From Gilliamella sp. WF3-4 (GTDB lineage Bacteria > Pseudomonadota > Gammaproteobacteria > Enterobacterales > Orbaceae), in NCBI RefSeq assembly GCF_001690275.1, contig NZ_LZGW01000007.1, forward strand, positions 1 to 64,000: a stretch of DNA of 64,000 nucleotides, written 5' to 3'. Numbering within the stretch: position 1 is the first letter of the stretch; every line of letters starts with the position of its first letter. Of the stretch, positions 11,568-63,666 are shown piece after piece. A program made the translations under genes and the position numbers. The notes beneath the pieces are model-generated. The model was not told the DNA's origin and searched no databases. It saw only the letters and a program-made list of their open reading frames with translations.

Positions 11568-12272
11568 ATGGTAAAATATCAAAATGTTGCAAAAAAAATA
11601 AAGCAAATGATTTATCAGCAGCAATTATCTAAAGGTACCCAACTTGCGAATATAGACGGACTTATTAATCAGTATCAAGTAAGCCGTAGCACAATTATTA
11701 AAGCGCTTAACTGCCTTGAACGGCAAGGCGTTATTTATCAAGTGCAAGGTAGCGGTATTTTTGTTCGTGAGCGCAAAAAAAGAGGTTATCTCAGTTTTTT
11801 ACAAAGTCATGGCTTTACTGTTGATTTAGATGATGTGTATGGTTCATCTAAAGTGTTTAATGTAGACATTATCAAACCCAGTGCAAGAGTGAAAGAAAAT
11901 TTACAATGTGGTGATAGTGAACATGTTTATTTTGTAAAAAGATTACGTTATGTTGATGATAAATTATATTGCTTAGAACAGTCCTATTATCGCAAAAAGC
12001 TTATTTGTTATTTAAATACAGACATTGTTGAACGTTCAATTTTTAGCTACATTCAAGAAAATTACAATATCAATATTGGTTTTTCTGATAAATATTTTCA
12101 AGTGATCAAACTTGATGCAAATATAGCAAAATATCTTGGGTTACAAGCGGGCGATCCCGCTCTTTGCGTTGAAGAAATATTTTATACCTCATCTGGTGAG
12201 CCGTTTGATTTCTCGAAAATTATTTACCATTATGAAAATGCAAGATTTTGCATACAAAATCATTCAAAATAA
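11568..12272 (+). CDS. GntR/UTRA-family transcriptional regulator
   Basis: A 234-residue protein. The N-terminal winged helix-turn-helix (about residues 5-68) has the GntR signature YQVSRSTIIKALNCLERQGV. The rest is a UTRA ligand-binding domain (about 85-228) with SIFSYIQENYNI and ALCVEEIFYTSSGEPFDFS. Such proteins sense a phosphorylated sugar. Its divergent position 176 bases from the PTS/GH1 operon makes it the likely local repressor, induced by a 6-phospho-beta-glucoside (inference). Confidence 0.9.
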   Translation: MVKYQNVAKKIKQMIYQQQLSKGTQLANIDGLINQYQVSRSTIIKALNCLERQGVIYQVQGSGIFVRERKKRGYLSFLQSHGFTVDLDDVYGSSKVFNVDIIKPSARVKENLQCGDSEHVYFVKRLRYVDDKLYCLEQSYYRKKLICYLNTDIVERSIFSYIQENYNINIGFSDKYFQVIKLDANIAKYLGLQAGDPALCVEEIFYTSSGEPFDFSKIIYHYENARFCIQNHSK

Positions 12273-12368
12273 GCCACTTAACATAGACAAAACCCAGCGC
12301 TACGTTGTTAAATTATCGGTAAATAGGCACTAATTCTTATTATTTTCGATAACAATTTTATATCTAAG

Positions 12369-13376
12369 TTAATTAGCTTGTTTTATTTGTGGTTTGTTAT
12401 CTGCCATGATACCAACTAATGCGTGAGGTTTATAGCATTCTTCTAAGTAGTTTAGCTCGTCATTGCTTAATTGTAATTGGGTTGCTTTAACGGCATCTTG
12501 AATTTGTTCGGTTTTTGTTGCACCCACAACAGGAGCAGTAACTTTAGTTAATAGCCATGCCAATGAAACTTCCGTCATGGATACTTGGTGGCGTTCAGCA
12601 ATTTCTGCAACTCGATCGATGATCACATGGTCTTGCTCGGCGGTTTTGTCGTATTTCTTCTTCGCATAGTTATCCGCATTGGCGCGTACAGTTTGGGTGT
12701 TATATGGACGAGCAAGGCGACCGCTGGCAAGTGCGCTATAAGGCGTCATAGCAATATTATCTTCTTGGCATAATCCAAATAATTCTCGCTCATCTTCACG
12801 CATAATTAAGTTATAGTGGCTTTGCATTGAAACAAACGGTGTTAAGCCTTCATATTTTGCTATGGTGTTTGCTTTTGCCAGTTGCCATGCATAACAGTTC
12901 GAAATGCCAATTGCACGGATTTTGCCTGCCAAAATATTTTGATGAAGGGTTTCAAGAACTTCTACTATAGGTGTGTTGTAATCCCAATAGTGATAAATAT
13001 AAAGATCGACGTAATCCACCCCCAAATTTTTTAGGCTTTGATTGAGTGATTGGTTGATAGCTTGTTGCCCAGTTATGCCATTAGCAATTTGCTCAGCTGT
13101 ACGTGGTAAAAATTTTGTTGCTATGACCATTTCATCACGCAGGCTCATATCGCGTAATGCTTTGCCAACATATCTTTCGCTTGAGCCATTTTGATAAGCG
13201 ATTGCGGTATCGAAAAAATTAATACCTTGCTCAAGAGCATATCCAATAATTTTGCTGCTTTCTGATTCATTTAGTGTCCAGTTGTGAATGCCTGTTGTAG
13301 GATCGCCAAATCCCATACAACCTAAACAAATCTGCGAGACAGTTAAATCACTATTACCCAGTTTAGTGTATTGCAT
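12369..13376 (-). CDS. Aldo/keto reductase
   Basis: A 335-residue NADPH-dependent TIM-barrel oxidoreductase. The catalytic tetrad can be placed: Asp and Tyr in DTAIAYQNGSSERYVG, Lys in VIATKF and His in YIYHYWD. C-terminal cofactor residues appear in PVVGATKTEQI. The ATG at 13376 has GAGG nine bases upstream; the GTG two codons earlier would sit directly on that ribosome site. Substrate unknown. It is monocistronic, converging with the GntR regulator gene. Confidence 0.9.
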   Translation of the reverse strand: MQYTKLGNSDLTVSQICLGCMGFGDPTTGIHNWTLNESESSKIIGYALEQGINFFDTAIAYQNGSSERYVGKALRDMSLRDEMVIATKFLPRTAEQIANGITGQQAINQSLNQSLKNLGVDYVDLYIYHYWDYNTPIVEVLETLHQNILAGKIRAIGISNCYAWQLAKANTIAKYEGLTPFVSMQSHYNLIMREDERELFGLCQEDNIAMTPYSALASGRLARPYNTQTVRANADNYAKKKYDKTAEQDHVIIDRVAEIAERHQVSMTEVSLAWLLTKVTAPVVGATKTEQIQDAVKATQLQLSNDELNYLEECYKPHALVGIMADNKPQIKQAN

Positions 13377-24611: not shown

Positions 24612-25457
24612 ATGAAATATATTGGAGCACATGTCAGTGCCGCAGGTGGGGTGGATAACGCCCCAATTAATGCCTATCAAATTGGCGCAACCGCATTTGC
24701 GCTATTTACCAAAAATCAACGACAATGGCACGCAAAACCGCTTGAATCAGCAATTATCGACAGCTTTAAAAAGCGTTGTGAAAAATATGGCTTTACCAGC
24801 AAGCAAATTTTACCGCACGATAGCTACTTAATTAACTTAGGCCATCCTGATCGTGAACAGCTCGAAAAATCACGCACGGCATTTTTAGATGAAATGCAAC
24901 GTTGTGAACAATTAGGTTTAACGTTACTGAATTTTCACCCTGGAAGCGATCTAAAACAAATATCGGTTGATGAATGTCTATCACGTATTGCCGAATCGAT
25001 TAACATGACACTAGACAAAACAAGTAGCGTTGTGGCAGTGATTGAAAATACCGCAGGGCAGGGCTCTAATCTGGGCTACAAATTTGAACATTTAGCGCAA
25101 ATCATTGATCAAGTAGAAGACAAAAATCGAGTGGGCGTTTGCATTGATACTTGCCATGCTTTTGCCGCAGGTTACGATCTCCGTACTGAAAAAGCGTGCC
25201 AAGAAACCTTTGCCGAATTTGAAAAAATTGTTGGTTTCAAATATTTACGAGGCATGCATTTAAACGATGCCAAAAGCGAATTTGCCAGCCATGTTGATCG
25301 CCACCATAGCTTAGGCAAAGGTAATATTGGCGAAGAGGCATTTAAATATATCATGCAAGATCCAAGAATTGACGAAATTCCGCTTATATTGGAAACCATT
25401 GATCCGGATATTTGGGCACAAGAAATTGCTTGGTTAAAGGAGCAAGTGAACTTATGA
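24612..25457 (+). CDS. nfo: Endonuclease IV
   Basis: A 281-residue zinc-dependent AP endonuclease that cuts DNA 5' of abasic sites. Metal-ligand motifs are visible in order: [59 protein letters not shown] and LETIDPD. Length matches the family. Its stop codon overlaps the start of the next gene (ATGA). Confidence 0.96.
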
Positions 25458-26667: not shown

Positions 26668-27333
26668 TTGAATCAATCCGTATTGCCATTAACAGAGCTT
26701 AATATTCCACCTTATTACCCAATTGAAGAAAGCCCTTTACCAGCTAGTTTTAGGCAGACTATGCAACAAAATTATGCGCAGCAATTAGTCATGTTAGCCG
26801 CAAAAGCAAAAAACGAAGCTGATGATAATGCGATTTGGAGCAGAAATTATCATTATGCTCATGAACGTAATGCAAAATTAAAAGCATGGACATCAGATAC
26901 TCTTGATGATGTTTTTGCTTATTTAAATGGCGCTGAAAAAGAAGCCAGTTTAGATCTAAACAATAATAATCAATTTATTTGCCAAAACAATCTACTATTA
27001 CTTACGTTGTACCGAGAATGTCTCCAAAAATTACCAGAATGCCATGTACAGCATTTATTACGGGCATATTATATTGAAACAAATATGCAAATTACCCATA
27101 ATTTAGATTTACTTTTTGAAAAAGAGGAATAACTCCAGTAAGCAGATTTGCGACAATTTGCTGACTTATTAGCCAAAATAATACTAAGCGAGCAAAAGGC
27201 AAAGCGATATATCGCAGATATTTTTAACGAAATTTTCTTTACCTTTTTAATTTGCTGAAGGTTATGCTGATTATATAGCCGTTGCGAACGCTTTAGACAG
27301 ATTGAATCCAGAATGGATGGAGAAAGAACTATG
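26668..27333 (+). pseudogene. Decayed partial copy of the yehI-like DUF4132 gene
   Basis: From the TTG at 26668 a 154-codon frame matches an internal part of the intact gene that follows (its residues about 350-460): QQNYAQQL, SDTLDDVFAYLNG, LQKLPECHVQHLLRA, LLFEKEE. Two stops (27130-27132 and 27139-27141) interrupt it, yet the same frame goes on with DLRQFADLLAKI, which matches DLRQIAYVLAKL of the intact copy. The last part, in another frame, encodes FAEGYADYIAVANALDRLNP and ends EWMEKEL, matching the extreme C-terminus of the intact gene. The middle, about 700 codons, has been deleted. Confidence 0.85.
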
Positions 27334-30300
27334 AATAAAATAAATCAATTATCATCACAACAACTAATTACCGCCATATTTGAACCTGTAAAGCAATTGA
27401 ATAAAGCCATGCCAGAACGTATTACTCAATATATTTTATATGGTGAAGACCCAAACGTGTTGGTTGATTTAAATCAGTTAAGCCAATCTTCAAACTCGAC
27501 GAAAAATCTTTATGAATTACTTAGAAGACCTTGTGATTTGTATATCATTAGCCTTGATGACAAAGCGAATTCATCGGAAGATGCAAGAATAGCTTTTTAC
27601 CAACGTTGGACTGATGAGTATTCTAATGAACAGATAACCCGTTTTGCCCGAGTTTTAGCCGCAGTTTGTAGCAACTTACACTTTATTAAACTCATTACTT
27701 CACAGGTACCATCTTGGTTTTTATATCTGCTATATGATGGTTTGATTACCACAATGACAGATTGTATTAACGAGGATCAACGACAAAATTGGTCAATTAA
27801 ACAATTACATCAATTGCTTGATGCTCAAGAGCCAGAATCAAGCCAGAAATTACTAATGGCTATTTTTGATCGTCAAAATATTTCAATTAACTATCAGAGT
27901 TATTTCAGAAATTTCTTTATAATTAATGATTTATTACCTTATATTATTGAGCATATCGAGATTTTCAAACAATTACCCGAGCAAGGTATGGCGGTATTAG
28001 GGCAAGTTGAGCAATTAAAATATATCCAACAACATCCTGAGCTCCACACACTGATGATTGACTTTATTGCTGTACAGTCATTAAATAGCTCAAAACAAGT
28101 TAGCCAGCTAGCAACGGAAATGCTACTTAGCTCTCCGCGCGAAATAGTACAACCACATTTACAACGGTTATTAACCTCAGGTACCGTTAAACAACGTAGC
28201 AGTGCTGCGACATTACAAGCTAGAATGTCATCAGATCCGACAATTTTACAACAAGCCTTAGCTAGCGAAACAAATAAAACCGTTATTACGGCAATTGAAA
28301 GTGCACTGTCTCGGCTTGAAAGTGCCAATGCCGTTGAACAACAAGCAACGTTGGTCATTGCTGATTTCGAGCCAATACAAGATATTGATTTACCAATCAA
28401 TGCTCGAGATATTTTGCAACAAAATTATGAAGAATATTTGATAGAATGTGAAAAAGCAGCGCAAAAAGAGGCTGAATATAATAAAAAATATTTAACAAAT
28501 TGGACGACAGAAGCAGAAACATATAAAGCTTTAAAAGCGGTCACATCGAAAGATTTAGATGATATATATCACTATTTAAATGGTAAAATTGAGCTTTCGG
28601 CGTTATTTAAAAAAATAGATAATAGCTTCAGTACGTCATTTGTATTGGCTAAAAATAGGCTACAAAATTTACCTGAATGTACACTTTTTCATTTTTTGCG
28701 TGCGGTTAGATTGGCTGATAAGTATTCTGGCATTTATTATTTTCAACAATTATATGAAAAAAACGAATTTTTAAAAGACTTTGATCTTAGGCAGATAGCC
28801 TATGTATTAGCAAAACTTGATGATCCTGAACGTTCTCTCTATGCTATTGCTTTGCCATTTTTAACCACAGACACTTATCATGAGATCTATGAAAATGAGC
28901 CAAACAAATTATGGCCATTTTTTGCCGAACATGAATTTTTGCTTGATGAGGCGTTGGGATTTGCTCCAGCCAACAAAATCTGGTCGTATATCAATATAGA
29001 TAAAGCGAGCGCTATAAAAATATTACAAACTTTTCCAACTTTGCCTGCTAAATATGTTTCTTATCTATGTGAATTAGCCTTGGAAGAAAGCAAACAAATA
29101 CGCTATACAGCGCAAGATGCTTTAAGTGTAATACCAAATATTCACAACCAAGTGGAGCAGGCGTTATCATCGGCTAAACAAGAAGTGCGTATTGCAGCAG
29201 CTAATTGGCTTGCACAGTTAGGGCAAAAATCTTCGATTAAAGCATTAAATGAGGCTTTACAAAAAGAAAAGCGCGAAACCGTACAAGCGTCATTATTAAT
29301 TGCGCTTGAAAAAATTGGTGAAGATATTAGCCAGCAATTAACCACTAAAAAACTATTAGCCGATGCACAAAAAGGCTTAAAAGGTAAAAAACCTACTGAT
29401 TTTGATTGGTTTGATGTAACGCTAATACCATCATTAACTTGGCAAAATGGAGAAGATGTTGATCCACAAATTGTGCAATGGTGGGTATGGTTAGCTGTCA
29501 AGTTGAAAGAACCCGCTAACCCATTATTAGGCATTTATAGCCGTTTATTAAGTTTGTCAAGCCAACAACTATTAGGCGAATTTATTTTACAAAGTTTTAT
29601 CAAACAAGATACTCGTAGACCAACAGTGGAAGAGGCTGAGGCACAAGCCAATTTATTGGCGGATAAGCGCTTACAACAATGTATCAAGTGGTATCAACAA
29701 TATCCTCAATATTACCCAAGTTATGCCAATATCACTTTTGAACAAGTATTTGAAGAGATAAAAAATGAAACACTTGCCGTCTATCTTGGATCGGCCATTA
29801 AAGCAAAAGGTCTATTAGCATTAACTCGTGGTATTGAAGGTCGTGTTGCGGTTTCACTAGTACGTAACTATATGAAAGATCATCAACAACGACGAGCACA
29901 AATTGAGGCCATGCTTGAACCACTTGCAAATAGTGATGATCCACTTATTACGCAACTCCTCTTATCGCTTGCACGCCGTTATCGTACCGCATCGATACAA
30001 GAAAAAGCACGATTATTGGTGGAAAATATTGCGAAGCGTAATGGTTGGACGACCGATGAACTCGCTGATCGCACCATTTCTACCGCAGGGTTAGATGATA
30101 ATGGGGTGTTAACGCTCGATTATGGCGAACGAATTTTTACGGCGAGTTTCGATGATAAATTTAAATGGCATTTAAAAAATTCAGATGGTGATGAAATTAA
30201 AGCGTTACCTGAAGCACGTAAAAGTGAAGATGTAACGTTAGTGAAAGAAGCTAAAAAACAGTTTACTAACAGTAAAAAAGAGCTAACGCAATTACTCAAT

Positions 30301-31029
30301 ATGCAAATGACCCGTTTTTATGAAGCCATGTGCGCACAGCGCCATTGGCGAGTTGAGGATTGGCAAAAATACTTGCAACCACATCCAATTGTGGGAAGGC
30401 TTGTTCAACGTTTAATTTGGCTTGAATTAGATGACAAAGGGCAAATTGTAAATAGCTTCAGGCCAACCGAAGATGGTAGCTTAATTACTACAGACGATGA
30501 TGAAATTTCATTAAATCAAGTAAATAAAATCGTTGTTGCACATTCGGCATTGCTATCAAGTGATAACATAAAAGCTTGGCAACATCATCTTAAAGACTAC
30601 AAAGTCACGCAACTATTTGAGCAGTTTACACACTCATTACCCGATGTGAGTAAAGTTGAAAATAATATTATCAATGAATGCTTTGGCTGGTTAACTGATA
30701 GCTTTACCCTACGTGGCATTTTAACAAAATTGGGCTATAAACGTGATGCTGTTGAAGACGCAGGTTGTTTTTATGGCTACTATAAATATTTTGTTGGCCT
30801 TAATCTGTATATCAATATTGAATTTAGCGGCAGTATGGTACCCGAAGAAAATGTTCCTGTGGCACTTTTTAACCTGTATTTTAGTAAAAAACCCGGTTTA
30901 AAACACCGAGCAATTGAACTTAATCAAGTGCCACCCGTATTGCTTGCAGAAGGCTATGCTGATTATATGGCTGTTGCTAAGGCCAGCAGTGGTTTTGATC
31001 CAAAATGGGAGCAGAAGCTATTATGGTAA
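27331..31029 (+). CDS. yehI: DUF4132 (MolR/YehI-like) protein, first gene of the yeh operon
   Basis: A 1232-residue cytoplasmic protein with no signal peptide. The middle (about 240-700) looks like HEAT-type helical repeats (PREIVQPHLQRLLTSGTVKQ, QVEQALSSAKQEVRIAAANW). The C-terminal part (about 980-1210) has the DUF4132 pattern: LLNMQMTRFYEAMCAQRHW, HPIVGRLVQRLIW and LAEGYADYMAVA. The start at 27331 follows GGAGAAAG and overlaps the pseudogene stop; the last seven bases overlap the AAA+ gene. Length is close to E. coli YehI. Its function is unknown; genetic links to molybdate metabolism were proposed for MolR. It is probably a scaffold or target-binding subunit of the operon's ATPase system. 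Confidence 0.88.
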   Translation: MNKINQLSSQQLITAIFEPVKQLNKAMPERITQYILYGEDPNVLVDLNQLSQSSNSTKNLYELLRRPCDLYIISLDDKANSSEDARIAFYQRWTDEYSNEQITRFARVLAAVCSNLHFIKLITSQVPSWFLYLLYDGLITTMTDCINEDQRQNWSIKQLHQLLDAQEPESSQKLLMAIFDRQNISINYQSYFRNFFIINDLLPYIIEHIEIFKQLPEQGMAVLGQVEQLKYIQQHPELHTLMIDFIAVQSLNSSKQVSQLATEMLLSSPREIVQPHLQRLLTSGTVKQRSSAATLQARMSSDPTILQQALASETNKTVITAIESALSRLESANAVEQQATLVIADFEPIQDIDLPINARDILQQNYEEYLIECEKAAQKEAEYNKKYLTNWTTEAETYKALKAVTSKDLDDIYHYLNGKIELSALFKKIDNSFSTSFVLAKNRLQNLPECTLFHFLRAVRLADKYSGIYYFQQLYEKNEFLKDFDLRQIAYVLAKLDDPERSLYAIALPFLTTDTYHEIYENEPNKLWPFFAEHEFLLDEALGFAPANKIWSYINIDKASAIKILQTFPTLPAKYVSYLCELALEESKQIRYTAQDALSVIPNIHNQVEQALSSAKQEVRIAAANWLAQLGQKSSIKALNEALQKEKRETVQASLLIALEKIGEDISQQLTTKKLLADAQKGLKGKKPTDFDWFDVTLIPSLTWQNGEDVDPQIVQWWVWLAVKLKEPANPLLGIYSRLLSLSSQQLLGEFILQSFIKQDTRRPTVEEAEAQANLLADKRLQQCIKWYQQYPQYYPSYANITFEQVFEEIKNETLAVYLGSAIKAKGLLALTRGIEGRVAVSLVRNYMKDHQQRRAQIEAMLEPLANSDDPLITQLLLSLARRYRTASIQEKARLLVENIAKRNGWTTDELADRTISTAGLDDNGVLTLDYGERIFTASFDDKFKWHLKNSDGDEIKALPEARKSEDVTLVKEAKKQFTNSKKELTQLLNMQMTRFYEAMCAQRHWRVEDWQKYLQPHPIVGRLVQRLIWLELDDKGQIVNSFRPTEDGSLITTDDDEISLNQVNKIVVAHSALLSSDNIKAWQHHLKDYKVTQLFEQFTHSLPDVSKVENNIINECFGWLTDSFTLRGILTKLGYKRDAVEDAGCFYGYYKYFVGLNLYINIEFSGSMVPEENVPVALFNLYFSKKPGLKHRAIELNQVPPVLLAEGYADYMAVAKASSGFDPKWEQKLLW

Positions 31030-32120
31030 AAAACGCACAAGCTATTCGTTTAAGTGCTGAACAACGTTATGCTGATGAGCTAAATACGCTACTTGAATTA
31101 GATAATGCAAACAATAAACCTCAAGGTTGGAACTTATCACCCAAATTAGTACGGCAATTTATTTTAGGTAATAAAGAGCTGGGCATTAGTCGTAAATTTT
31201 TTGGTGATGATCCACTGGTCGATCGGGCAATTGTTTCTTTACTTGGTAAACAAGGTTTGATGTTAGTCGGTAAGCCGGGGACCGCTAAATCGATGTTGTC
31301 TGAATTGCTAGCGGCAGCAATTAGTGGCGATTCAAATCTGACTATTCAAGGCACGGCTGGCACCAGTGAAGATCATATCCGATATGCTTGGAATTACGCT
31401 TTACTATTAGCTGAAGGACCAACAGAGCGCGCATTAATCGGCTCGCCTATTTACCATGGTATGCAACAAGGTAAAATTGTTCGTTTTGAAGAGATCACGC
31501 GTTGCCCACCCGAAATTCAAGATGTACTGGTATCATTAATGTCTGAAAAGCAAATGATGATCCCTGAAATGGGGCAAAGTGTAAAAATGAGTGCTAAGCC
31601 TGGATTTAATCTTATTGCTACGGCAAACTTGCACGATCGTGGTGTGCACGAAATGTCGGCTGCATTAAAACGTCGCTTTAATTTTGAAACGATTAATCCT
31701 ATTACAGATAAAAATTTCGAAATAGAATTAATTCAAACACAACTTAATCAGGAATTAGGCGAATTAAAATCACAAGTCATTGTCCCTATTGATGTCATTG
31801 AACTGCTAGTGACCACATTTCAAGAGCTAAGACAAGGGCAAACGCAAAATGGCACTCACCTTAAAGTGCCTGATGCCGTGATGTCAACGGCTGAAGCTGT
31901 GAATATTGTGTATGCTTCAGCATTAGATGCTTATTATTTTGGTGATGGCACACTAAATGGGGGGCAGATTGCCAAACAACTGATAGGTGTTGTTTTAAAA
32001 GATAATGCTGACGATATCAAACGAATTCAATTTTATATGGATAATGTGGTGCGTGAACGGGCTAAACATTCATCGCAATGGCACTCGTTTTATCAGGTAT
32101 CTAAACATTTTTGGAAATAA
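31023..32120 (+). CDS. yehL: MoxR-type AAA+ ATPase, YehL-like
   Basis: A 365-residue AAA+ protein. Walker A is GKPGTAKSML (near residue 83), Walker B is IVRFEEITRCPPEIQDVLVS (near 155-170), sensor 1 is FNLIATANLHDRG and the arginine-finger region is ALKRRFNFE. MoxR ATPases act as chaperones that remodel proteins together with VWA partners; here the VWA protein is two genes downstream. ATG at 31023 overlaps the end of yehI, so translation is coupled. Confidence 0.9.
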   Translation: MVKNAQAIRLSAEQRYADELNTLLELDNANNKPQGWNLSPKLVRQFILGNKELGISRKFFGDDPLVDRAIVSLLGKQGLMLVGKPGTAKSMLSELLAAAISGDSNLTIQGTAGTSEDHIRYAWNYALLLAEGPTERALIGSPIYHGMQQGKIVRFEEITRCPPEIQDVLVSLMSEKQMMIPEMGQSVKMSAKPGFNLIATANLHDRGVHEMSAALKRRFNFETINPITDKNFEIELIQTQLNQELGELKSQVIVPIDVIELLVTTFQELRQGQTQNGTHLKVPDAVMSTAEAVNIVYASALDAYYFGDGTLNGGQIAKQLIGVVLKDNADDIKRIQFYMDNVVRERAKHSSQWHSFYQVSKHFWK

Positions 32121-32130
32121 TTAATCAATA

Positions 32131-34752
32131 ATGATAATGAGCCGATCACAATTACCACAACGCCTACAACATGCTTTAATAGGTAAAGATGCTTTGCAAC
32201 AACAGCAGATCTATTTTGCGCCTGTACGTCATCATAGTCCTGCTTGTAGCTATGCTGTTAGGCAACTGATTAACCAAATTAAACCTACCCATGTTTTAAT
32301 TGAAGCGCCTGCGAGCTTTTCATCCATACTCGATGAATTATTACATCACGAAACTGAGCCACCTATAGCCATACTTTGTCAAGCTGATATCCAAATAGCA
32401 AAATACCTAAATAATGAAGAACAGGCGATAGGTAACGAGCAAGATAACGAAAAAGATAACGATAATGAATTGCTATCAGAAACGGAATTGATTACGCGCA
32501 CCGCATTTTACCCATTTTGTAGTTATTCACCTGAATGGCAAGCAATGCAATTGGCAAAAAAATACCATGCTAATATTCAATTTATTGATCTACCTTGGGC
32601 TGAGCAAGCTGTTCAAGAAATGATGCCAAAGCATGATGCATCATTGTTATGTGAAACCTATTTGAAACACAGTGAATATATTACGCAATTAGCTAGAAAA
32701 TTACACTGTCGTGATCATGACGAAGTTTGGGAACATTTGTTTGAATTACGTGATTTTGCTGATATTGCTAACTGGCGCACTTTTTTTGAAGATACTTTCA
32801 TTTGGTGTGCCATGGCAAGGCTAGAATATACTGCTTCATCGCTTGAATTAGAGGGCTCTAGCCAACGAGAACAGCATATGATAACGGCTATTAGGCAATT
32901 AAAACAGTCCATGCCAGAGGCAAAAATTGTCGTTGTCACAGGAGGATTTCACACTTTAGCACTGTATGAGGGATTGGCGAACGCAAAACTCATTGTACCG
33001 AACAAAGCAAAAATTAATAAAGTAAATCAACAGCGCGAGGCGAAACAATGGCAAAATAAAAATGATGGTGATCGAACTTGGCTTATTCGTTATAGTTTTG
33101 AGCGCCTTGATGCATTAAACGGCTATTTTGCCGGTATGCCTTCTCCTGCTTATTATCAAGAAGTGTGGCAGTCAATGCTAACTTATGAACAAAATTATGA
33201 ACAAAATCAATCACAAACCACACAAGATCACCGACAAGCACAAGCCTTACAATTTTTATCAAATATTGTGCAGCAATTACGAAAACAGCAAAGTGTTGAT
33301 AATGGTGCCAATAATGAAATTGGCTTGGTACCCTTAAAATCTGCGATTGAACAAACCTATTTATTAGCCGAGTTACGAGGGCATTGTGGTCCAGGACGAT
33401 ATGATTTACTTGATGGTATACAGTCAGCCTTTATCAAGGGTAGCATTCATGATGTGCGTGGAGAATTTTGGCAAATAATTCATCGTACTTTATCGGGCAA
33501 CCAATTTGGCAAAATCCCAAGTAACATTGCTTCACCGCCGTTAGTCAATGAAGTTTATGCAATGCTCAAAAAGTATCGTTTTAAATTAGACGATACATTA
33601 CCTAAAATTGCACATATTGATATTTACCGTAAACCTGAACATCGGCAACGGAGCCGTTTTTTACATCTACTGGCTTTTTTAGATGTTGGCTTTGCCGAGC
33701 GCCTTGATGGTCCCAATTACCAGTATGGAACACGGTTAACCATCATGTTTGAAGATTGGCAATACCAATGGACACCAATGGTTGAAGCCAAGTTAATTGA
33801 GCTATCACAACAAGGCACTCGGTTAGAACACATCGCTTTACAAAAACTACATCTATTGATGGAGTCATTAACCGAAGATGGCATAACCCAACCTTGCCAA
33901 CTTGTTGTTCAAATTATGCTAAAAGCGGCTTTAATGGGATTTCCATCCTATTTTACAGCGTTATTGACAAAGCTATCAAAATACTTAGATACGGATAATA
34001 CGTTGTCATCATTAGTTGATTGTGGGCATCGATTACTTTATTTATGGCAGGGGCGTGATTTTTTAGCGCTTAATGATAGTGCCACTTTGTTAGCTTTATT
34101 AGCTAAAGTACCAAGGCAAGCTTTTTTCTTACTAGATACATTAAAGCAATCAGATGAGCAACAACAGCAAGAAAATTTCAATACATTATTATCACTTAGA
34201 GATCTACTCAATAATTTACCTGAGCAACTTAACTCGAAAAAGCTTAAGCAGGATTTTTATTTTAATTTACAACGTTTACAGCCTTTATTAACCCAAGCGC
34301 CACTAATTCGTGGTGCCATTGATAGTCTCTGCTACCTAGATTCGCAAATTAGCCAATCAGAACTTGATGAAAAAATAAAAATTGCTTTTGATTTAGGTGC
34401 TCAATATGAACAGGTAAGTAGTTATTTAACTGGCTTGATTCAATGTTCACCAGAATTACTTATTCAATCGTCGCAACTGCTAATGAGCCTTGATGAATTG
34501 TTGGTACATTGGGATCAAGAAAAATTTATACAAATACTGCCTGATTTACGATATGCCTTTGCAAAGTTGACGCCGAAACAAAATGCGACAATTGCTGAAA
34601 AAATTGCTAAAAAATATCATATTAAAAAGCAGAGCATGGACTTTGAACAATATAAATTTAGTGATGACGACTTACAAAAAACACTCGCTTTAGAATTTGC
34701 TATTTGCCAGTATATTAATCAACAACAACTCCAAGATTGGTTTAAACGGTAA
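32131..34752 (+). CDS. yehM: DUF5682-type protein, YehM-like
   Basis: An 873-residue cytoplasmic protein. The N-terminal part has the DUF5682 pattern: FAPVRHHSPACSYAVRQL, then HVLIEAPASF, and later VVVTGGFHTLALYEGL and LRGHCGPGRYDLLDGIQSAF. The rest is helical with no known motif. Two ATGs (32131 and 32137) are possible; neither has a strong ribosome site, so coupling from the gene 10 bases upstream is likely. Conserved histidines and acidic residues hint at an enzyme-like fold, which is unproven. Confidence 0.85.
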   Translation: MIMSRSQLPQRLQHALIGKDALQQQQIYFAPVRHHSPACSYAVRQLINQIKPTHVLIEAPASFSSILDELLHHETEPPIAILCQADIQIAKYLNNEEQAIGNEQDNEKDNDNELLSETELITRTAFYPFCSYSPEWQAMQLAKKYHANIQFIDLPWAEQAVQEMMPKHDASLLCETYLKHSEYITQLARKLHCRDHDEVWEHLFELRDFADIANWRTFFEDTFIWCAMARLEYTASSLELEGSSQREQHMITAIRQLKQSMPEAKIVVVTGGFHTLALYEGLANAKLIVPNKAKINKVNQQREAKQWQNKNDGDRTWLIRYSFERLDALNGYFAGMPSPAYYQEVWQSMLTYEQNYEQNQSQTTQDHRQAQALQFLSNIVQQLRKQQSVDNGANNEIGLVPLKSAIEQTYLLAELRGHCGPGRYDLLDGIQSAFIKGSIHDVRGEFWQIIHRTLSGNQFGKIPSNIASPPLVNEVYAMLKKYRFKLDDTLPKIAHIDIYRKPEHRQRSRFLHLLAFLDVGFAERLDGPNYQYGTRLTIMFEDWQYQWTPMVEAKLIELSQQGTRLEHIALQKLHLLMESLTEDGITQPCQLVVQIMLKAALMGFPSYFTALLTKLSKYLDTDNTLSSLVDCGHRLLYLWQGRDFLALNDSATLLALLAKVPRQAFFLLDTLKQSDEQQQQENFNTLLSLRDLLNNLPEQLNSKKLKQDFYFNLQRLQPLLTQAPLIRGAIDSLCYLDSQISQSELDEKIKIAFDLGAQYEQVSSYLTGLIQCSPELLIQSSQLLMSLDELLVHWDQEKFIQILPDLRYAFAKLTPKQNATIAEKIAKKYHIKKQSMDFEQYKFSDDDLQKTLALEFAICQYINQQQLQDWFKR

Positions 34753-34761
34753 GGTATAAAC

Positions 34762-35934
34762 ATGAATAATAATAAACCAATAATCGACACGCAAACCGTT
34801 AATCATATTAAACGATGGCGGTTGATTTTAGGTAAATATGCTGATCATCACCTTAATCAAATAGCATTCGATCAAAATGATCTTAGGTTAGCACAATCAT
34901 TAGATTTCCTTTATCGGCATGAATACCGTCAACGAGGGTTAAACGTGGATGAACAAGATCACACAAAGCACAAAGGGAAGGGCGGTAGCAATCATCATTC
35001 TGTGTTTAACACCATTAGTTGGTTAAATAAAACGCGAAAACTATTTCCTAAAAGCACTTTTGAACGAATGCAACAGCAGGCAATAGAACGTTATCAATTA
35101 CACGAGATCTTAAACGATCCTAGCGTTATTAATGCGTTAGAACCCAATATGAATTCGCTGCATTTATTAATGAATTTTCGGGGGCAATTAAAAAAAGAGG
35201 TTTATTTGGCAGTAAAAGAATTGATTCAAAGGGTTGTTGATCAGATCTTACAAAAAATTAAACCCAATTTTATTAATGCGATAAGCGGTAAAAAACATCG
35301 ATTTCGACCTTCCCAAATACGTTGTAGCCAAAACTTCGATTGGCGAGCTACAATGAAAGCCAACTTAAAACATTTTGATCAAAACAACCAGCGACTGATG
35401 ATTGAAAATGTCATTTTCAACTCGCGAATGAATAGGCATTTACCTTGGGATATTATTTTATGTGTTGATCAAAGTGCATCAATGAATAACTCAATTATCT
35501 ATTCTGCGGTTTGTGCAAGTATTTTGGCGAAATTACCTACAATTAATTTGCACTTGTTTGTTTTTGACACGCAAATTGTTGATCTTACTCATTTAGCTCA
35601 CGATCCTGTTGAAGTGCTTATGAGCGTTCAGTTAGGTGGCGGAACAAATATTGCAAAAGTGCTTAATTATGCTGAACAAAAAGTCAAAACCCCGCATCGA
35701 ACTATTATGGTATTGGTTAGTGATTTTTGCGAAGGGGGATCACTCATTGAACTTTATACCACCGTGTCAAGGATGAATAGTAACCGCATTAAAATGTTAG
35801 GATTAGCCGCATTAGACGACAATGCCGAGCCGGTTTATGATTTGCAAATCTCACAGCAATTAGCTAATCGAGGTATGCAAATTGCTGCATTAACGCCTGA
35901 ACATTTTGCTACTTGGTTAGCGGAGGTTATGTAA
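34762..35934 (+). CDS. yehP: VWA (CoxE-like) domain protein, YehP-like
   Basis: A 390-residue protein. The C-terminal half is a von Willebrand A domain with the MIDAS motif DQSASM (near residue 235), a Thr in QLGGGTNIAKVL and a VLVSDFCEGG strand-loop. The N-terminal half is basic and helical. VWA partners of MoxR ATPases bind metal and link the ATPase to its target. AAGG lies before the ATG, nine bases behind yehM, and the stop overlaps the yehQ start by one base (TAATG). Confidence 0.9.
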   Translation: MNNNKPIIDTQTVNHIKRWRLILGKYADHHLNQIAFDQNDLRLAQSLDFLYRHEYRQRGLNVDEQDHTKHKGKGGSNHHSVFNTISWLNKTRKLFPKSTFERMQQQAIERYQLHEILNDPSVINALEPNMNSLHLLMNFRGQLKKEVYLAVKELIQRVVDQILQKIKPNFINAISGKKHRFRPSQIRCSQNFDWRATMKANLKHFDQNNQRLMIENVIFNSRMNRHLPWDIILCVDQSASMNNSIIYSAVCASILAKLPTINLHLFVFDTQIVDLTHLAHDPVEVLMSVQLGGGTNIAKVLNYAEQKVKTPHRTIMVLVSDFCEGGSLIELYTTVSRMNSNRIKMLGLAALDDNAEPVYDLQISQQLANRGMQIAALTPEHFATWLAEVM

Positions 35935-38180
35935 TGAGTTGGCAGCAAATTTATTTAAATTATGATCAAGACGCTTTAGCGCTTTATGCTAACATTGGTT
36001 TAATTCGCCGCGCTCGTAAAGATATTGAGGCAAATAAAATTGAATTTATTCAGCAAGAAAATAATAATGTTTTGCAATTCAATGCTGATGGACAACAAGT
36101 TTGTTTGCCTGCACAAGGGATTCAAGCTGCCAGTTGCAGTTGCCCAGCGCATGGGCATTGTAAGCATATCATATCGGCTGTTTTATGGTTGCAAGCGCAT
36201 AATTCAGAGCATAGTTTAGCGAATGGTTCAGCAAATAGTTTAGCAAATAACTCAGCAAATAACTCATTACCAGAAGAAACTCCCCCTCATTGCACTAAAC
36301 GAGATGATAAAAGCCCAATAAAACCATTAACGCCATTAGATGATTTGAATAAAGTTAATAATCAGGCTAAACAAGATCAGATTAAGCCAATCACGCCTTT
36401 AACTAACGTGTTAACTGAATTATTATCATTAGATGCCAGCAAGCTTTTAAAAAAAGCAGGTAAAGCGAACACACTGACGGCTTATGAACTTGTATGCAAT
36501 TGGCAAAACAATAATTTACTGACAATTCAATACCAACAATCGCAACAATCGCAACTACGTATTACGGTACCTGAAAGTTCTGAACCTATTATTTATATAG
36601 CAGGAACAGGTTTTGATGGGATGATCTCAGCACTTCCCATAAAACAAAAAATGGCTGTGCATTTAGCCATTATTGCTTATCTTTTTGAGCAAAATAATCA
36701 AGCATGGCAATGGCCAGTAACCGTAGATCAGATAAAAAATGAGACTCAACTACTTTCACCTGAAGAAATTACCCTCATAAAACAGATTCAAACATATATT
36801 TATAAGCTTATTTATCAAGGCTTATCTCATATTAGTCATAATCAACTATCGCATTTACAATTATTTAATATATCAGCCAAAACACAAAATTTACCGCGGT
36901 TGGCGGCAATGCTTAGGCAACTATGTCAATTGGTTGAGTTACTGGCTAACCGCCATTTTACCGTTGAAGAACAAGATATTTTACTGTTTTTGGGGCAGAT
37001 AAAAACTTATACCGAAATGCTATTACATAATCAAGGTGAACCGCTTAGCAAATTGCGAGGTAAGATAACGCGCCAATATAAAACAACAGAGCAAGCACTT
37101 GACTTATTACCATTAGGGGGACGTTGGTGGCAAAGTAGAACAGGAGCCGTTGGTGCGACATTTTACTTTTGGGATATAAAACAACAACAATACCAAGAAA
37201 CGACATTAGCCAGATCTGATAAAAATAATATCAATTTTAACCGTGTAACAATTTGGAACAGTATGTCGATATGGCAAACATCCCCTGATAGGTTAATGCA
37301 AAATGCCATAACACTTCATCACCCACGTATATCCCAAGATGGCGAGTTAGCCAGTAGTGGTTCGACCGCTACGTTACAACAAAACGGGTGGAATGATGAA
37401 AATTATCTTAAATTTAAAGCAACTACAGGCTTCCAAAATTGGTCAGTATTAAATGGTTATTTGCAAAATAGCCATTTGGATGACGTGCTTTTTAATGAGG
37501 TAGTATTTGTTCATATACAAAATAACGATAAACCGTATTTTGATGAAATTAGGCAAAGTTTAGTTTGGTGCGTAAAAGATGCCGAGAAAAACCAGTTATT
37601 TTTACGGCTGTTTTGGGATGAATATAGAAAATCACGCATTGAGGTTTTACGTAGTTTTCTAGAAACACAAAATCAGCCTTTAACCATATTAGTGAAAGTC
37701 GTAAAAAACGAGAGTTTTTTAGATTTAGAACCTTTCGCTTTACTTTATAAAGCACAAAAAACAAATGAAATAAAAACCTTAAATCTTGATTTTGAAGATT
37801 CTTGGCGCCGAAGAAAAACCGTAGTGGCCGAACACATGTTTCTCTCAAATACTTATACAATGCGAAAAATGCAGTTAAGCGAAAATAATTACACTAAAGA
37901 TTCGCTTTCAACTTTTATTATTCAGCCACTATTAACAATACTTGAAAGTGTGGCTTGTTCAGGACGACTTGAATTATTTATCGATCAAAAACAGCGATTG
38001 AAAGCGATTCAACATGATTGTGACACTTTAGGATTAAACTCGTTAAGTTTAGTGTTAAACAAAATCCTTAGCAATCAACTCATCTCGATAACGCATCTAT
38101 TACAAGCGGTTTATTTATGTTATCTATTAAAAAAAATGCATTATCAATTACCTATACAGCTTATTAAGCCGAATTGTTAG
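35934..38180 (+). CDS. yehQ: SWIM zinc-finger protein, YehQ-like
   Basis: A 748-residue protein. Its SWIM finger is SCSCPAHGHCKHI (near residues 63-75), fitting the CxCx(n)CxH pattern. After a low-complexity linker (repeated NSLANNSA-type units and KPITPL segments, about 95-160) comes a long helical region with no motif that I recognise. SWIM fingers bind DNA or protein. GGAGG precedes the ATG at 35934, which overlaps the yehP stop. It is last in the operon. Confidence 0.87.
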   Translation: MSWQQIYLNYDQDALALYANIGLIRRARKDIEANKIEFIQQENNNVLQFNADGQQVCLPAQGIQAASCSCPAHGHCKHIISAVLWLQAHNSEHSLANGSANSLANNSANNSLPEETPPHCTKRDDKSPIKPLTPLDDLNKVNNQAKQDQIKPITPLTNVLTELLSLDASKLLKKAGKANTLTAYELVCNWQNNNLLTIQYQQSQQSQLRITVPESSEPIIYIAGTGFDGMISALPIKQKMAVHLAIIAYLFEQNNQAWQWPVTVDQIKNETQLLSPEEITLIKQIQTYIYKLIYQGLSHISHNQLSHLQLFNISAKTQNLPRLAAMLRQLCQLVELLANRHFTVEEQDILLFLGQIKTYTEMLLHNQGEPLSKLRGKITRQYKTTEQALDLLPLGGRWWQSRTGAVGATFYFWDIKQQQYQETTLARSDKNNINFNRVTIWNSMSIWQTSPDRLMQNAITLHHPRISQDGELASSGSTATLQQNGWNDENYLKFKATTGFQNWSVLNGYLQNSHLDDVLFNEVVFVHIQNNDKPYFDEIRQSLVWCVKDAEKNQLFLRLFWDEYRKSRIEVLRSFLETQNQPLTILVKVVKNESFLDLEPFALLYKAQKTNEIKTLNLDFEDSWRRRKTVVAEHMFLSNTYTMRKMQLSENNYTKDSLSTFIIQPLLTILESVACSGRLELFIDQKQRLKAIQHDCDTLGLNSLSLVLNKILSNQLISITHLLQAVYLCYLLKKMHYQLPIQLIKPNC

Positions 38181-38457: not shown

Positions 38458-40593
38458 TTAGCTTTTTAGGCTACCAGCCAGAGCAATTAACTCTGGCAGA
38501 ATATCTAAAATTAACACCAACTGTTGCATAACTAACAAATCATTATTGGCTAGATTATCATTGATCGAGAGCGTTTCAATATAATCTGTGGTCGATTTTT
38601 TTATTAATTGATATTTTTCATCCAGTTTTTTATCTGTTAACAGATTGATAATATACACGGATAGATCGTCAAACAGTTCAAGTGTGTGGGGCGAAATCCC
38701 TTTATCTCGGTGTGCGCCTAAGGTAGAAAGATAACTAATCAATGTATGATTAAGGGTTAATAAACGAAATCCTTGATCAATAACAGTTGGGTTCATATGA
38801 GGCTCTTTTGTCATCAAACTAATTAAAGACGATAAATCGGCATTGCTATCATGAGCGGCTCGCCTTGCTAATCGATATTGCGGATCGTTGGTTTTTCCTG
38901 ATAAGTACTGGCTACCAATTAGCGCTAAATAATGGCTGTCATCATGACAAACTCGATCAATCAATTTCGGTAAGTTTCTAAATTTCCAATCAGGCCAAAT
39001 AAAACTAACGGCAAACCACGCAATAAAACACCCTATTAAGGTGGCAATAATGCGTGAAATAGCCACAGAAATGCTACTTTCACCAATCAGGCTAAAGCTA
39101 AAAAATACTAACAATGTAATAAAGGCGGTGGCGTAAGCATATTGTGAATTTTTAAATAAAAAGAATAACCAACCAGTAATGATAATTAACACTAACTGCT
39201 CTTCAACGCTAGGAAATAAATAAGTAAGAGGAATGCCAATAATAATACCTAATAGAGTGCCGATTACACGTAATTTTAATCGGTGTTTTGTCGTTGAGTA
39301 ATTAGGCTGGCAAACAAATAGGCTGGTTAAGATAATCCAATAGCCATGAGTAAGTTGGAAAAAGGAAAGTACCATATAGCCAACAAATAAGACAAGGCTC
39401 ATACGAATTGCGTGGCGAAATAATGCTGATTTAACCGTCAAATTACGTTTAATTTTGCTAAAAATATCATGAAAGCTTGTTAACTCTTCGTCAACTAATT
39501 GGTTATCTTCTTGTTCTTTTGATAGATGTTGCTCAGTATCAACATTGGCTAATAATAGATCAATAGATAGCAAGTTTTGATATAAGCTTTGCAAAGATTT
39601 AACCAATAATGCATTGTTTTTATCACGAATTTGATATTGTTTGATAGCTTCTTCAAGGTACGAAAAGTAATGCACAAACAGGGGATCGTGCTGATAAGTT
39701 TGATTTAGCTTAATTGACACAGCTAACTTAGTGCAAGCTTTGCCTTGCAAATTTAAAATACGGGCAAACCGAAACAAAATATCGCTATGCTTAAAATGCT
39801 GGCTTAAAGTTTGATAATTGCTATGTGACGAGCTAGCCCGCTCATGAATATCTTGTGCGACAAAATAATAGTTAAGCATCTTTTTGACAGAAGATTGCCC
39901 TCTGTAACTCTTTAGTCGATTAAACAGTGTGCTTTTGGTTTGATTAAAAGCATTAACCAACTGATTATTGCTATCGGCCAATTGTTGTGTTTGTTTGATA
40001 AAATGATTGGTTTCATCGGGATCAAACATGGCCGCTTTATCATCAAGATATTGTGCCAACTTTAAAAAACAGTAAGATAAGCCTTGTTGTGTTGTCCGAA
40101 TTGGTTGAATCATTGATTCAATAAACGAAACAATACTATACCAAAGTGTTCCTAACAACAAAAAACAGGGTAATGTATAGTTATCTGTATATAAATTATG
40201 CCCAAGCATGGTATAGGCAGCAATCAAAAGTGACCCAAAAGCAATGACGCCATAACGTTGCCCAAGCGTACCTAGCATAATAAAAATAAACGTTGAAGAC
40301 ATCAGCCCCACAATAAACAATGCCGGGTAATCAAATAACCATTCGACCGAAAAAGTCGCAATAGAAAAACAGAACAATGTCAGTATGATATTAATACAGC
40401 GACTTAATGGGCGGGTGTCGATTTCAGTTAAACCTGCCGCGACAACGCCAAGAGTCAGCGGAATAACCAGCGAAGTGTGTCCTAAATACCACGGAACCAA
40501 CGTCGATCCCGTTAAACTAATTAACATTCGAAGACTAAAAAGAAGATTACTGCTGTAAAAGACTTTACGTAAAGTCAAAATGAATGCGTGCAC
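38458..40593 (-). CDS. yccS: YccS-like inner-membrane FUSC-family protein
   Basis: A 711-residue membrane protein. Two hydrophobic blocks of about five or six helices each (about residues 20-165 and 395-530) surround cytoplasmic domains. This is the FUSC/YccS layout, including WYLGHTSLVIPLTLGVVAAG and the second-block motif HGYWIILTSLFVCQPNYSTTK. Related proteins are thought to export aromatic acids or similar compounds; YccS itself is uncharacterised. Length is close to E. coli YccS. The gene converges with yehQ. Confidence 0.88.
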   Translation of the reverse strand: MHAFILTLRKVFYSSNLLFSLRMLISLTGSTLVPWYLGHTSLVIPLTLGVVAAGLTEIDTRPLSRCINIILTLFCFSIATFSVEWLFDYPALFIVGLMSSTFIFIMLGTLGQRYGVIAFGSLLIAAYTMLGHNLYTDNYTLPCFLLLGTLWYSIVSFIESMIQPIRTTQQGLSYCFLKLAQYLDDKAAMFDPDETNHFIKQTQQLADSNNQLVNAFNQTKSTLFNRLKSYRGQSSVKKMLNYYFVAQDIHERASSSHSNYQTLSQHFKHSDILFRFARILNLQGKACTKLAVSIKLNQTYQHDPLFVHYFSYLEEAIKQYQIRDKNNALLVKSLQSLYQNLLSIDLLLANVDTEQHLSKEQEDNQLVDEELTSFHDIFSKIKRNLTVKSALFRHAIRMSLVLFVGYMVLSFFQLTHGYWIILTSLFVCQPNYSTTKHRLKLRVIGTLLGIIIGIPLTYLFPSVEEQLVLIIITGWLFFLFKNSQYAYATAFITLLVFFSFSLIGESSISVAISRIIATLIGCFIAWFAVSFIWPDWKFRNLPKLIDRVCHDDSHYLALIGSQYLSGKTNDPQYRLARRAAHDSNADLSSLISLMTKEPHMNPTVIDQGFRLLTLNHTLISYLSTLGAHRDKGISPHTLELFDDLSVYIINLLTDKKLDEKYQLIKKSTTDYIETLSINDNLANNDLLVMQQLVLILDILPELIALAGSLKS

Positions 40594-63387: not shown

Positions 63388-63666
63388 TTACTATTTAGCT
63401 CCTAAGTTATATCTGGCTTCATACAAAAAAGTGCGTTGATTATAGCGTACAGTTGTAAGCTGAACAATACTTTGCCGTGTTTTTTATTTCTGTATCCTAA
63501 TATCGCCTTAATTATTTATATAGGTAAAGCAATTACAATAAATTTACTGCTTAAAAAAATGATTAAAATAGTGAGTGATGACGGTTTTTGTCAGCAATAT
63601 ATACTTGCAAAAACTACTATGGTTACGATATACTGTATAAATAAACAGGTAAATATTAAGTTCAAT

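Follow-up and report, generated by a model that had tools for sequence, protein, structure and literature searches.

A yeh-type MoxR–VWA operon in Gilliamella sp. WF3-4: tandem, exchanged DUF4132 genes in relatives, a candidate DUF5682 enzyme and a proposed link to the Deinococcus ddrTUVWX operon

The stretch of DNA analysed here (the window) comprises 64,000 nucleotides from the 2.85 Mb genome of the bee-gut bacterium Gilliamella sp. WF3-4 (contig NZ_LZGW01000007.1). At positions 27331–38180 it contains a tight unit of five genes on the same strand, coding for a DUF4132 protein, a MoxR ATPase, a DUF5682 protein, a VWA_CoxE protein and a SWIM protein (Table 1). The close packing described in the initial annotation was confirmed from the sequence: the MoxR start codon (ATG, 31023) overlaps the gene for the 1232-residue DUF4132 protein by 7 bases, gaps of 10 and 9 bases follow, and the ATG of the SWIM gene (35934) overlaps the VWA gene by 1 base. 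Profile scores bear out the family names given for the first four proteins. The operon had also been called complete and placed from 26668 onwards; the intact unit begins at 27331, and a second DUF4132 gene is eroded at 26668–27334. By sequence, the unit corresponds to the yehI-L-M-P-Q cluster of Escherichia coli, a similarity that had been noted before and that extends to all five families and their order.

Table 1. Genes and gene remnants at the operon locus (window coordinates; P0001 and P0002 denote the DUF4132 and MoxR proteins of the window).
Feature	Coordinates	Strand	Basis
DUF4132 protein, 1232 aa, class A	27331–31029	+	PF13569 113 bits; HEAT_2 30.3 bits; AlphaFold2 model; tree
MoxR AAA+ ATPase, YehL type	31023–32120	+	AAA_5 118.6 bits; 47.6% to YehL; Walker A
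DUF5682 (YehM) protein	32131–34752	+	PF18934 329 bits; model, mean pLDDT (predicted local distance difference test) 89.3; fold comparison
VWA_CoxE protein (YehP)	34762–35934	+	165 bits; MIDAS
SWIM zinc-finger protein (YehQ-like)	35934–38180	+	conserved CxC..CxH; 32% to YehQ over 78 aa
DUF4132 remnant, N-terminal piece, short-type (S class)	26668–27132	+	33% to P0001 347–485, E 2e-18
Same eroded DUF4132 gene, C-terminal remnant	27251–27334	+	frame reading; tblastn 53%/30 aa to P0001 1208–1237
nfo (endonuclease IV), left boundary of the slot	24612–25457	+	534.5 bits
yccS-family transporter, right boundary of the slot	38458–40593	-	TIGR01666 818.6 bits

A first scan of genome contigs with a single protein as the query gave no match. 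With a 14-sequence DUF5682 alignment as the query, at least 571 places were confirmed, and the best 80 were kept; since they are ranked by likeness to the window, these loci favour its architecture. Profiles built on sequences of Orbaceae, E. coli and a few further gammaproteobacteria detected all five families in 67 of the 80 loci. Where the DUF5682 gene had 9 kb or more of sequence to either side, the count was 54 of 56 (50 of 52 without the Gilliamella loci). Consistent linkage in other genomes, on which the initial annotation had made its operon depend, was thus observed. According to the record titles, the loci span Pseudomonadota, Actinomycetota, Bacillota, Planctomycetota, Verrucomicrobiota, Spirochaetes and Bacteroidota. 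The most frequent gene orders among these best 80 were HM5VZ (28 loci; H, DUF4132; M, MoxR; 5, DUF5682; V, VWA; Z, SWIM), M5VZH (11) and M5VHZ (6), followed by others. Because 28 of the 80 read HM5VZ, two DUF4132 genes are not essential to a yeh-type cluster. DUF5682 was present in 13 of 44 Orbaceae genomes, that of the window included, and the VWA gene in the same 13 and as a contig-edge fragment in one incomplete genome. Of 5426 E. coli genomes, 5166 cover at least 80% of the DUF5682 gene, which is almost always chromosomal there, while 50,697 phage records gave one partial match. The Iodobacter mobilizable plasmid pl1 (locus L149) carries the whole operon, including two DUF4132 genes, one of which is short and beside transposases; type I restriction-modification genes adjoin the operon, and plasmid partition genes flank it. 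The system is real, widespread and partly in print under other names, and among its members the operon of the window is unexceptional, with slight erosion.

The MoxR protein of the window showed 47.6% identity to YehL versus 21.6% to RavA. Its Walker A motif was found in 72 of 72 relatives, 65 of which have a FEEITR-like Walker B; the usual DE-NR form was searched for and found in none of the 72. In the window protein the Walker B region, at about residue 160, has RFEEITR where the DE form is usual. This Walker B may be a mark of the MoxR subfamily, and the window's MoxR is assigned by its sequence to the YehL subfamily, with a YehP-type VWA partner. The metal ion-dependent adhesion site (MIDAS) of the VWA protein, described earlier as intact, was found as DQSAS at residue 236 and GGT at residue 293, and DxSxS is present in all 76 VWA relatives; the protein is 40% identical to YehP and gave no BLAST match to ViaA. 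The naming of the last gene as a SWIM zinc finger is partly upheld: the Pfam score (11.5 bits) lies under the cut-off of 19.6, but CxC..CxH occurs in 71 of 74 relatives, with C68, C70, C76 and H78 at least 90% conserved in 41 sequences. The family profile matches YehQ, which is among its seeds, at 559 bits. At one locus (L026 of genome G229, 12157–12438) the start of the SWIM gene is partly duplicated ahead of the full gene.

For the DUF5682 protein (residues numbered from base 32137), hmmscan listed DUF5682 as the sole family, sequence searches gave no convincing relative of solved structure, and no mention of 'DUF5682' was found in the open-licence PubMed Central (PMC) literature. In the fold comparison, residues 7–286 aligned with 8b6h_DQ, a subunit of Tetrahymena complex IV (Z 11.5, root-mean-square deviation (rmsd) 4.4, 204 aligned), and the protein aligned with the erythromycin esterase EreC (6xcq; Z 7.3, rmsd 5.3, 174 aligned). 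The top BFVD match was a viral protein of the TraB family (prob 0.99, E 0.094). HHalign aligned the RExxM...GGFH region with TraB (probability 7.8% and 3.6%, E 0.0044 and 0.012) and with EreA-type proteins (1.0%, E 0.053); unrelated controls reached 0.1–0.5% (E 0.13–0.59), and TraB against EreA-type proteins 0.2%. Seventeen polar or aromatic residues, among them R31, H32, H33, C37, E56, E133, D151, E203, R228, R244, E245 and H272, were identical in all 68 sequences compared. The modelled protein probably consists of a TraB/erythromycin-esterase-like N-terminal domain and C-terminal helical repeats, and because of this domain and the invariant polar residues DUF5682 may be the enzyme of the system.

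At least two DUF4132 open reading frames (ORFs) of at least 800 residues were found in 11 of the 12 other operon-bearing Orbaceae, and the twelfth (G251; G labels denote sampled genomes and L labels loci) has one intact gene and one split in two. Three copies are present in G243 and G264, four in G250 and at least four, plus two cut by contig ends, in the draft genome G262 (three contigs). Eight ORFs of at least 1234 residues lie within 36.7 kb in G231, together with a truncated one of 648 residues. The one of the eight that adjoins MoxR is rearranged: its N-terminus is extended, and the DUF4132 domain is partly missing. Beyond Gilliamella, loci such as L089, L096, L097, L099 and L110 also carry at least two. 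In the G243 operon (L031, 3283–3661) a second MoxR gene lies in pieces between two DUF4132 genes, which suggests that a larger block was once duplicated or that recombination took place. A quick tree with several long branches, in which placement is unsure, separated an expanding class A, containing the intact gene of the window, from classes B and S, and copies from different species interleaved in it. Synonymous divergence (dS) of the first DUF4132 gene was 0.07 between G253 and G246, compared with 0.45–1.45 for eight upstream flanking genes, 0.15 for a downstream one and 0.25–0.53 for the other operon genes, and 0.11 between G236 and G251, compared with 0.33–2.22 for eight flanking genes; these low values point to recent exchange between species. 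Conversely, the four core genes of G243 and G264 differ by a dS of 0.04–0.06 and their matched DUF4132 genes by 0.20 and 0.56, so the array turned over and the core did not. The ratio of nonsynonymous to synonymous divergence (dN/dS) was below 1 in every pair compared among relatives (0.04–0.53 for operon genes), and there the operon genes are under purifying selection. Among 26 class A copies, pairwise identity was 0.49–0.57 in residue blocks 51–100 and 351–500, 0.81–0.86 in 851–1050 and 0.67–0.71 in 1051–1200, and the eight G231 copies showed the same pattern of variable and conserved blocks. The AlphaFold2 model (mean pLDDT 90.1; model residue 1 is P0001 residue 43) is helical to about model residue 880 and mixed alpha/beta beyond; HEAT proteins and other helical-repeat proteins related to them make up its listed PDB matches. 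New here are tandem arrays of up to eight long DUF4132 copies that turn over, are exchanged between species and have a variable N-terminal solenoid.

The tandem of two DUF4132 genes seen in E. coli and in most Orbaceae copies is not present in the window, which has one intact gene and a wreck. The first part of the latter (26668–27132) shows 47% and 41% identity to the starts of intact genes of 897 (G240) and 847 (G234) residues; a frame opening at 27134 ends as a DUF4132-like C-terminus, and its TGA shares bases with the start codon of the intact gene. On these alignments, 26668–27334 is read as the wreck of a second, S-class DUF4132 gene. In the window nfo and yccS are 13.0 kb apart, with the operon between them; in all 10 operon-less relatives examined (of 31 in the family sample) they face each other at 0.1–2.6 kb. 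The slot of G245 retains one DUF4132 gene and a 92-residue piece of another, with no match to MoxR, DUF5682 or VWA, and the arrays of G231 and G243 sit outside the slot. Between nfo and the wreck lies a gene for a 361-residue protein of no known family (P0008, 25412–26497); of the 44 Orbaceae genomes, 22 contain relatives of it, in several cases tandemly repeated or broken, and in G233, G254 and G255, which lack the operon, relatives likewise occupy the nfo–yccS slot. Promoter-like and terminator-like matches were at shuffle level (49 vs 51.8 and 11 vs 9.2) and do not point to one common transcript.

A second architecture was found in Deinococcus. The operon of D. taeanensis has the order SWIM, DUF5691, AAA, small ORF, DUF5682, VWA; a DdrO-type site with 1 mismatch precedes it by 20 bp. 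Profiles seeded without Deinococcus matched its MoxR, VWA and DUF5682 proteins at 473, 401 and 478 bits. Among 398 Pseudomonadota, DUF5682 was found in 14 genomes and DUF5691 over the cut-off in 6, all within those 14; in all six, the two genes are 1.2–1.7 kb apart, space for one ATPase gene. Two more, sub-threshold DUF5691 matches fell in genomes without DUF5682. DUF5682 proteins of the DUF5691 type scored 658–865 bits and the other places over the cut-off 327–371, and G457 holds one of each score class. DUF5691 had no match in the genome of the window (G000). The available text of two papers describes ddrTUVWX of D. deserti (Deide_18730–18690) as a radiation-induced, IrrE-dependent five-gene operon of unknown function (PMC5552922), with the SWIM gene first, a MoxR-like gene within and the VWA gene last (PMC5552922, PMC2669436), the MoxR and VWA genes being proposed as a chaperone pair (PMC2669436). 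By analogy we equate ddrTUVWX with the DUF5691 type, taking the identities of Deide_18700 and Deide_18720 from D. taeanensis; to call the system undescribed, as was done initially, was therefore too strong. Sequence comparison thus newly links yeh with ddr through a core that appears to be MoxR, DUF5682 and VWA, and DUF5682 and a SWIM-annotated protein alone accompany MoxR–VWA in the two architectures. A damage-induced DUF4132 protein, DRA0166, is reported from D. radiodurans in the accessible part of PMC8533742, where moeA and moeB are given as unchanged upon DdrO depletion.

In E. coli, the order in K-12 is yehF, yehH (pseudogene), yehI, K, L, M, P, Q, and CTGGATAAAATTACAG lies immediately upstream of yehF. 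The accessible portions of two reports give the yehF transcript as raised by 0.80–1.14 log2 at the four later time points (PMC11002266) and list molR among LexA-regulated genes (PMC11039860). In a large branch of E. coli ST131 (184 isolates), a transposon is described in the DUF4132 region near metG/yeh (available text of PMC9334617); the front of the cluster can therefore be lost. Near the operon of the window, a relaxed CTG-N10-CAG was found only within the remnant (26933), and upstream DdrO-type matches (radiation/desiccation response motif, RDRM) only with 2 mismatches, also inside the remnant (26789, 27262). The sole strict CTGT-N8-ACAG match of the window, a LexA-like site, is at 63631–63650 (TACTGTATAAATAAACAGGT; 0.41 expected by chance).

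We tentatively propose, at a little short of an even chance, that the operon encodes a stress-response protein-remodelling machine in which a MoxR–VWA motor remodels or activates DUF5682, directed by an interchangeable DUF4132 protein. MoxR, an AAA+ ring by family analogy, would be the ATP-driven motor and the VWA protein its adaptor, as in RavA–ViaA and NorQ–NorD, and by analogy with characterised MoxR–VWA pairs the two would remodel a bound client. DUF4132 would be the exchangeable solenoid: its variable N-terminal part would recognise a client or a damaged target, its better conserved C-terminal part would touch the core, and in the ddr type DUF5691 would stand in for it. DUF5682 would be the enzyme, activated, loaded or released by the motor: targets would be brought by DUF4132, the motor would act and DUF5682 would catalyse, with the SWIM protein as a zinc-dependent nucleic-acid or protein adaptor. 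Client recognition by DUF4132 or SWIM had been suggested in the initial annotation; the HEAT-type solenoid, its variable N-terminal half and the copy turnover favour DUF4132 in that putative role. The setting may be the clearing or reactivation of protein or protein–DNA complexes after damage, which is the most likely one because the first gene of the E. coli cluster (LexA) and the Deinococcus operon (DdrO/IrrE) are reported to be damage-controlled. We infer the enzyme activity, docking, clients and physiological role, and likewise that the operon works in Gilliamella sp. WF3-4. A more specific form, possible though rather doubtful, is a repertoire machine: a fixed MoxR–VWA–DUF5682 engine served by tandem, expanding, species-traded DUF4132 solenoids, each with its own target via the variable N-terminal half, and with DUF5682 as a new motor-activated enzyme of TraB/EreA-like fold.

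Several results weigh against this proposal. The EreC Z scores are only 7.3 and 7.0, HHalign probabilities for DUF5682 against TraB and EreA-type proteins just 1–8%, and Foldseek of the DUF5682 model against the PDB gave no match at E<=0.001; 8b6h_DQ was not identified as a TraB protein, a PDB search with a bacterial TraB protein having given nothing useful. The SWIM and DUF4132 profiles miss the SWIM and DUF5691 proteins of D. taeanensis. According to the available text of PMC2669436, D. radiodurans is without the five-gene operon, so DRA0166 is a relative of one part only. SOS induction in E. coli is modest and, in the portion of the report available, observed for yehF only; no LexA-type site was found upstream of the window operon, and RDRM-like matches across the window were below chance (64 vs 97). 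Strict LexA- or DdrO-type sites were present in 0 of 69 operon heads (background 0–1 of 366 starts per motif class), a weak test, since neither the E. coli box nor the D. taeanensis site would satisfy such strict patterns. Published regulation in E. coli and Deinococcus is the basis for the DNA-damage setting, which is unsupported in the window.

The patchy occurrence in Orbaceae (13 of 44), the varying DUF4132 copy number, with copies turned over in otherwise near-identical operons and exchanged between species, and the Iodobacter plasmid carrying the operon beside a type I restriction system would fit a conflict or anti-phage system, in which DUF4132 copies sense invaders, MoxR–VWA is a threshold switch and DUF5682 the effector. 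We consider this unlikely. The cluster is near-core and chromosomal in E. coli and all but absent from phages, the window operon gave only a chance-level Csm2 match to PADLOC models (E 0.019), and the conflict system named in the initial annotation found no direct support. For operon neighbours, 109 of 117 picked were scanned (8 dropped, mostly from near-duplicate species); 19 PADLOC models were matched, each by one member and with no background set run, and they may represent perhaps six proteins because the matches fall under six names. A maturation chaperone, inserting a metal or cofactor into, or activating, one dedicated enzyme (DUF5682 or a protein elsewhere), is likewise improbable. CoxD–CoxE and NorQ–NorD are chaperones of that kind, and the pairing of MoxR with a VWA_CoxE protein of intact MIDAS and the constancy of DUF5682 as a partner agree with it; yet no metalloenzyme is consistently linked, no Pfam family occurring in more than 2 of the 109 neighbours, and the DUF4132 arrays are left unexplained. 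That the operon is a decaying relic in Gilliamella sp. WF3-4, its slot losing DUF4132 genes and later the core, as the eroded second DUF4132 gene, the reduced G245 slot and the adjoining nfo and yccS of operon-less relatives might indicate, is very unlikely given five intact ORFs with intact motifs and a dN/dS below 1 (among relatives, the window not included).

The system matters because the YehL subfamily of MoxR has no assigned job although the cluster is near-universal in E. coli, and joining yeh with the radiation-induced ddrTUVWX lets two model organisms be approached with a single testable question. Specificity probably resides in the part that the DUF4132 arrays single out, and the DUF5682 invariants are targets for mutagenesis. 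Should the arrays prove to be a recognition repertoire, bacteria would possess in this system a machine whose receptors can be swapped and which lies beyond the defence systems catalogued so far.

Among known systems, the closest is the E. coli yeh cluster, with the same five families in the same order and identities of 47.6% (MoxR), 40% (VWA) and 26.5% (DUF5682). In front, E. coli additionally carries a WGR-DUF4132 gene, which is intact in the record CP088875 but a split pseudogene in K-12; yehK, a small gene, and a LexA-type box are further differences. The window has the DUF4132 wreck only, and WGR and the box were not found there. The ddrTUVWX operon shares SWIM, MoxR-like and VWA genes with the window, and its D. 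taeanensis counterpart also DUF5682, but DUF5691 replaces DUF4132, SWIM comes first and control is by DdrO/IrrE. RavA–ViaA and NorQ–NorD likewise pair a MoxR ATPase with a VWA partner (available text of PMC3893208); the window differs by its extra DUF5682, DUF4132 and SWIM genes and, from RavA–ViaA, by the low identity to RavA given above and a ViaA score of just 16.8 bits on the VWA profile. The MoxR-vWA-VMAP ternary conflict systems, as described in the accessible part of PMC7159879, also combine MoxR and vWA with a variable component; unlike them, the operon proteins had no VMAP domain at E<=1, and bpMoxR scores 24.4 bits on the window, under its cut-off of 27.

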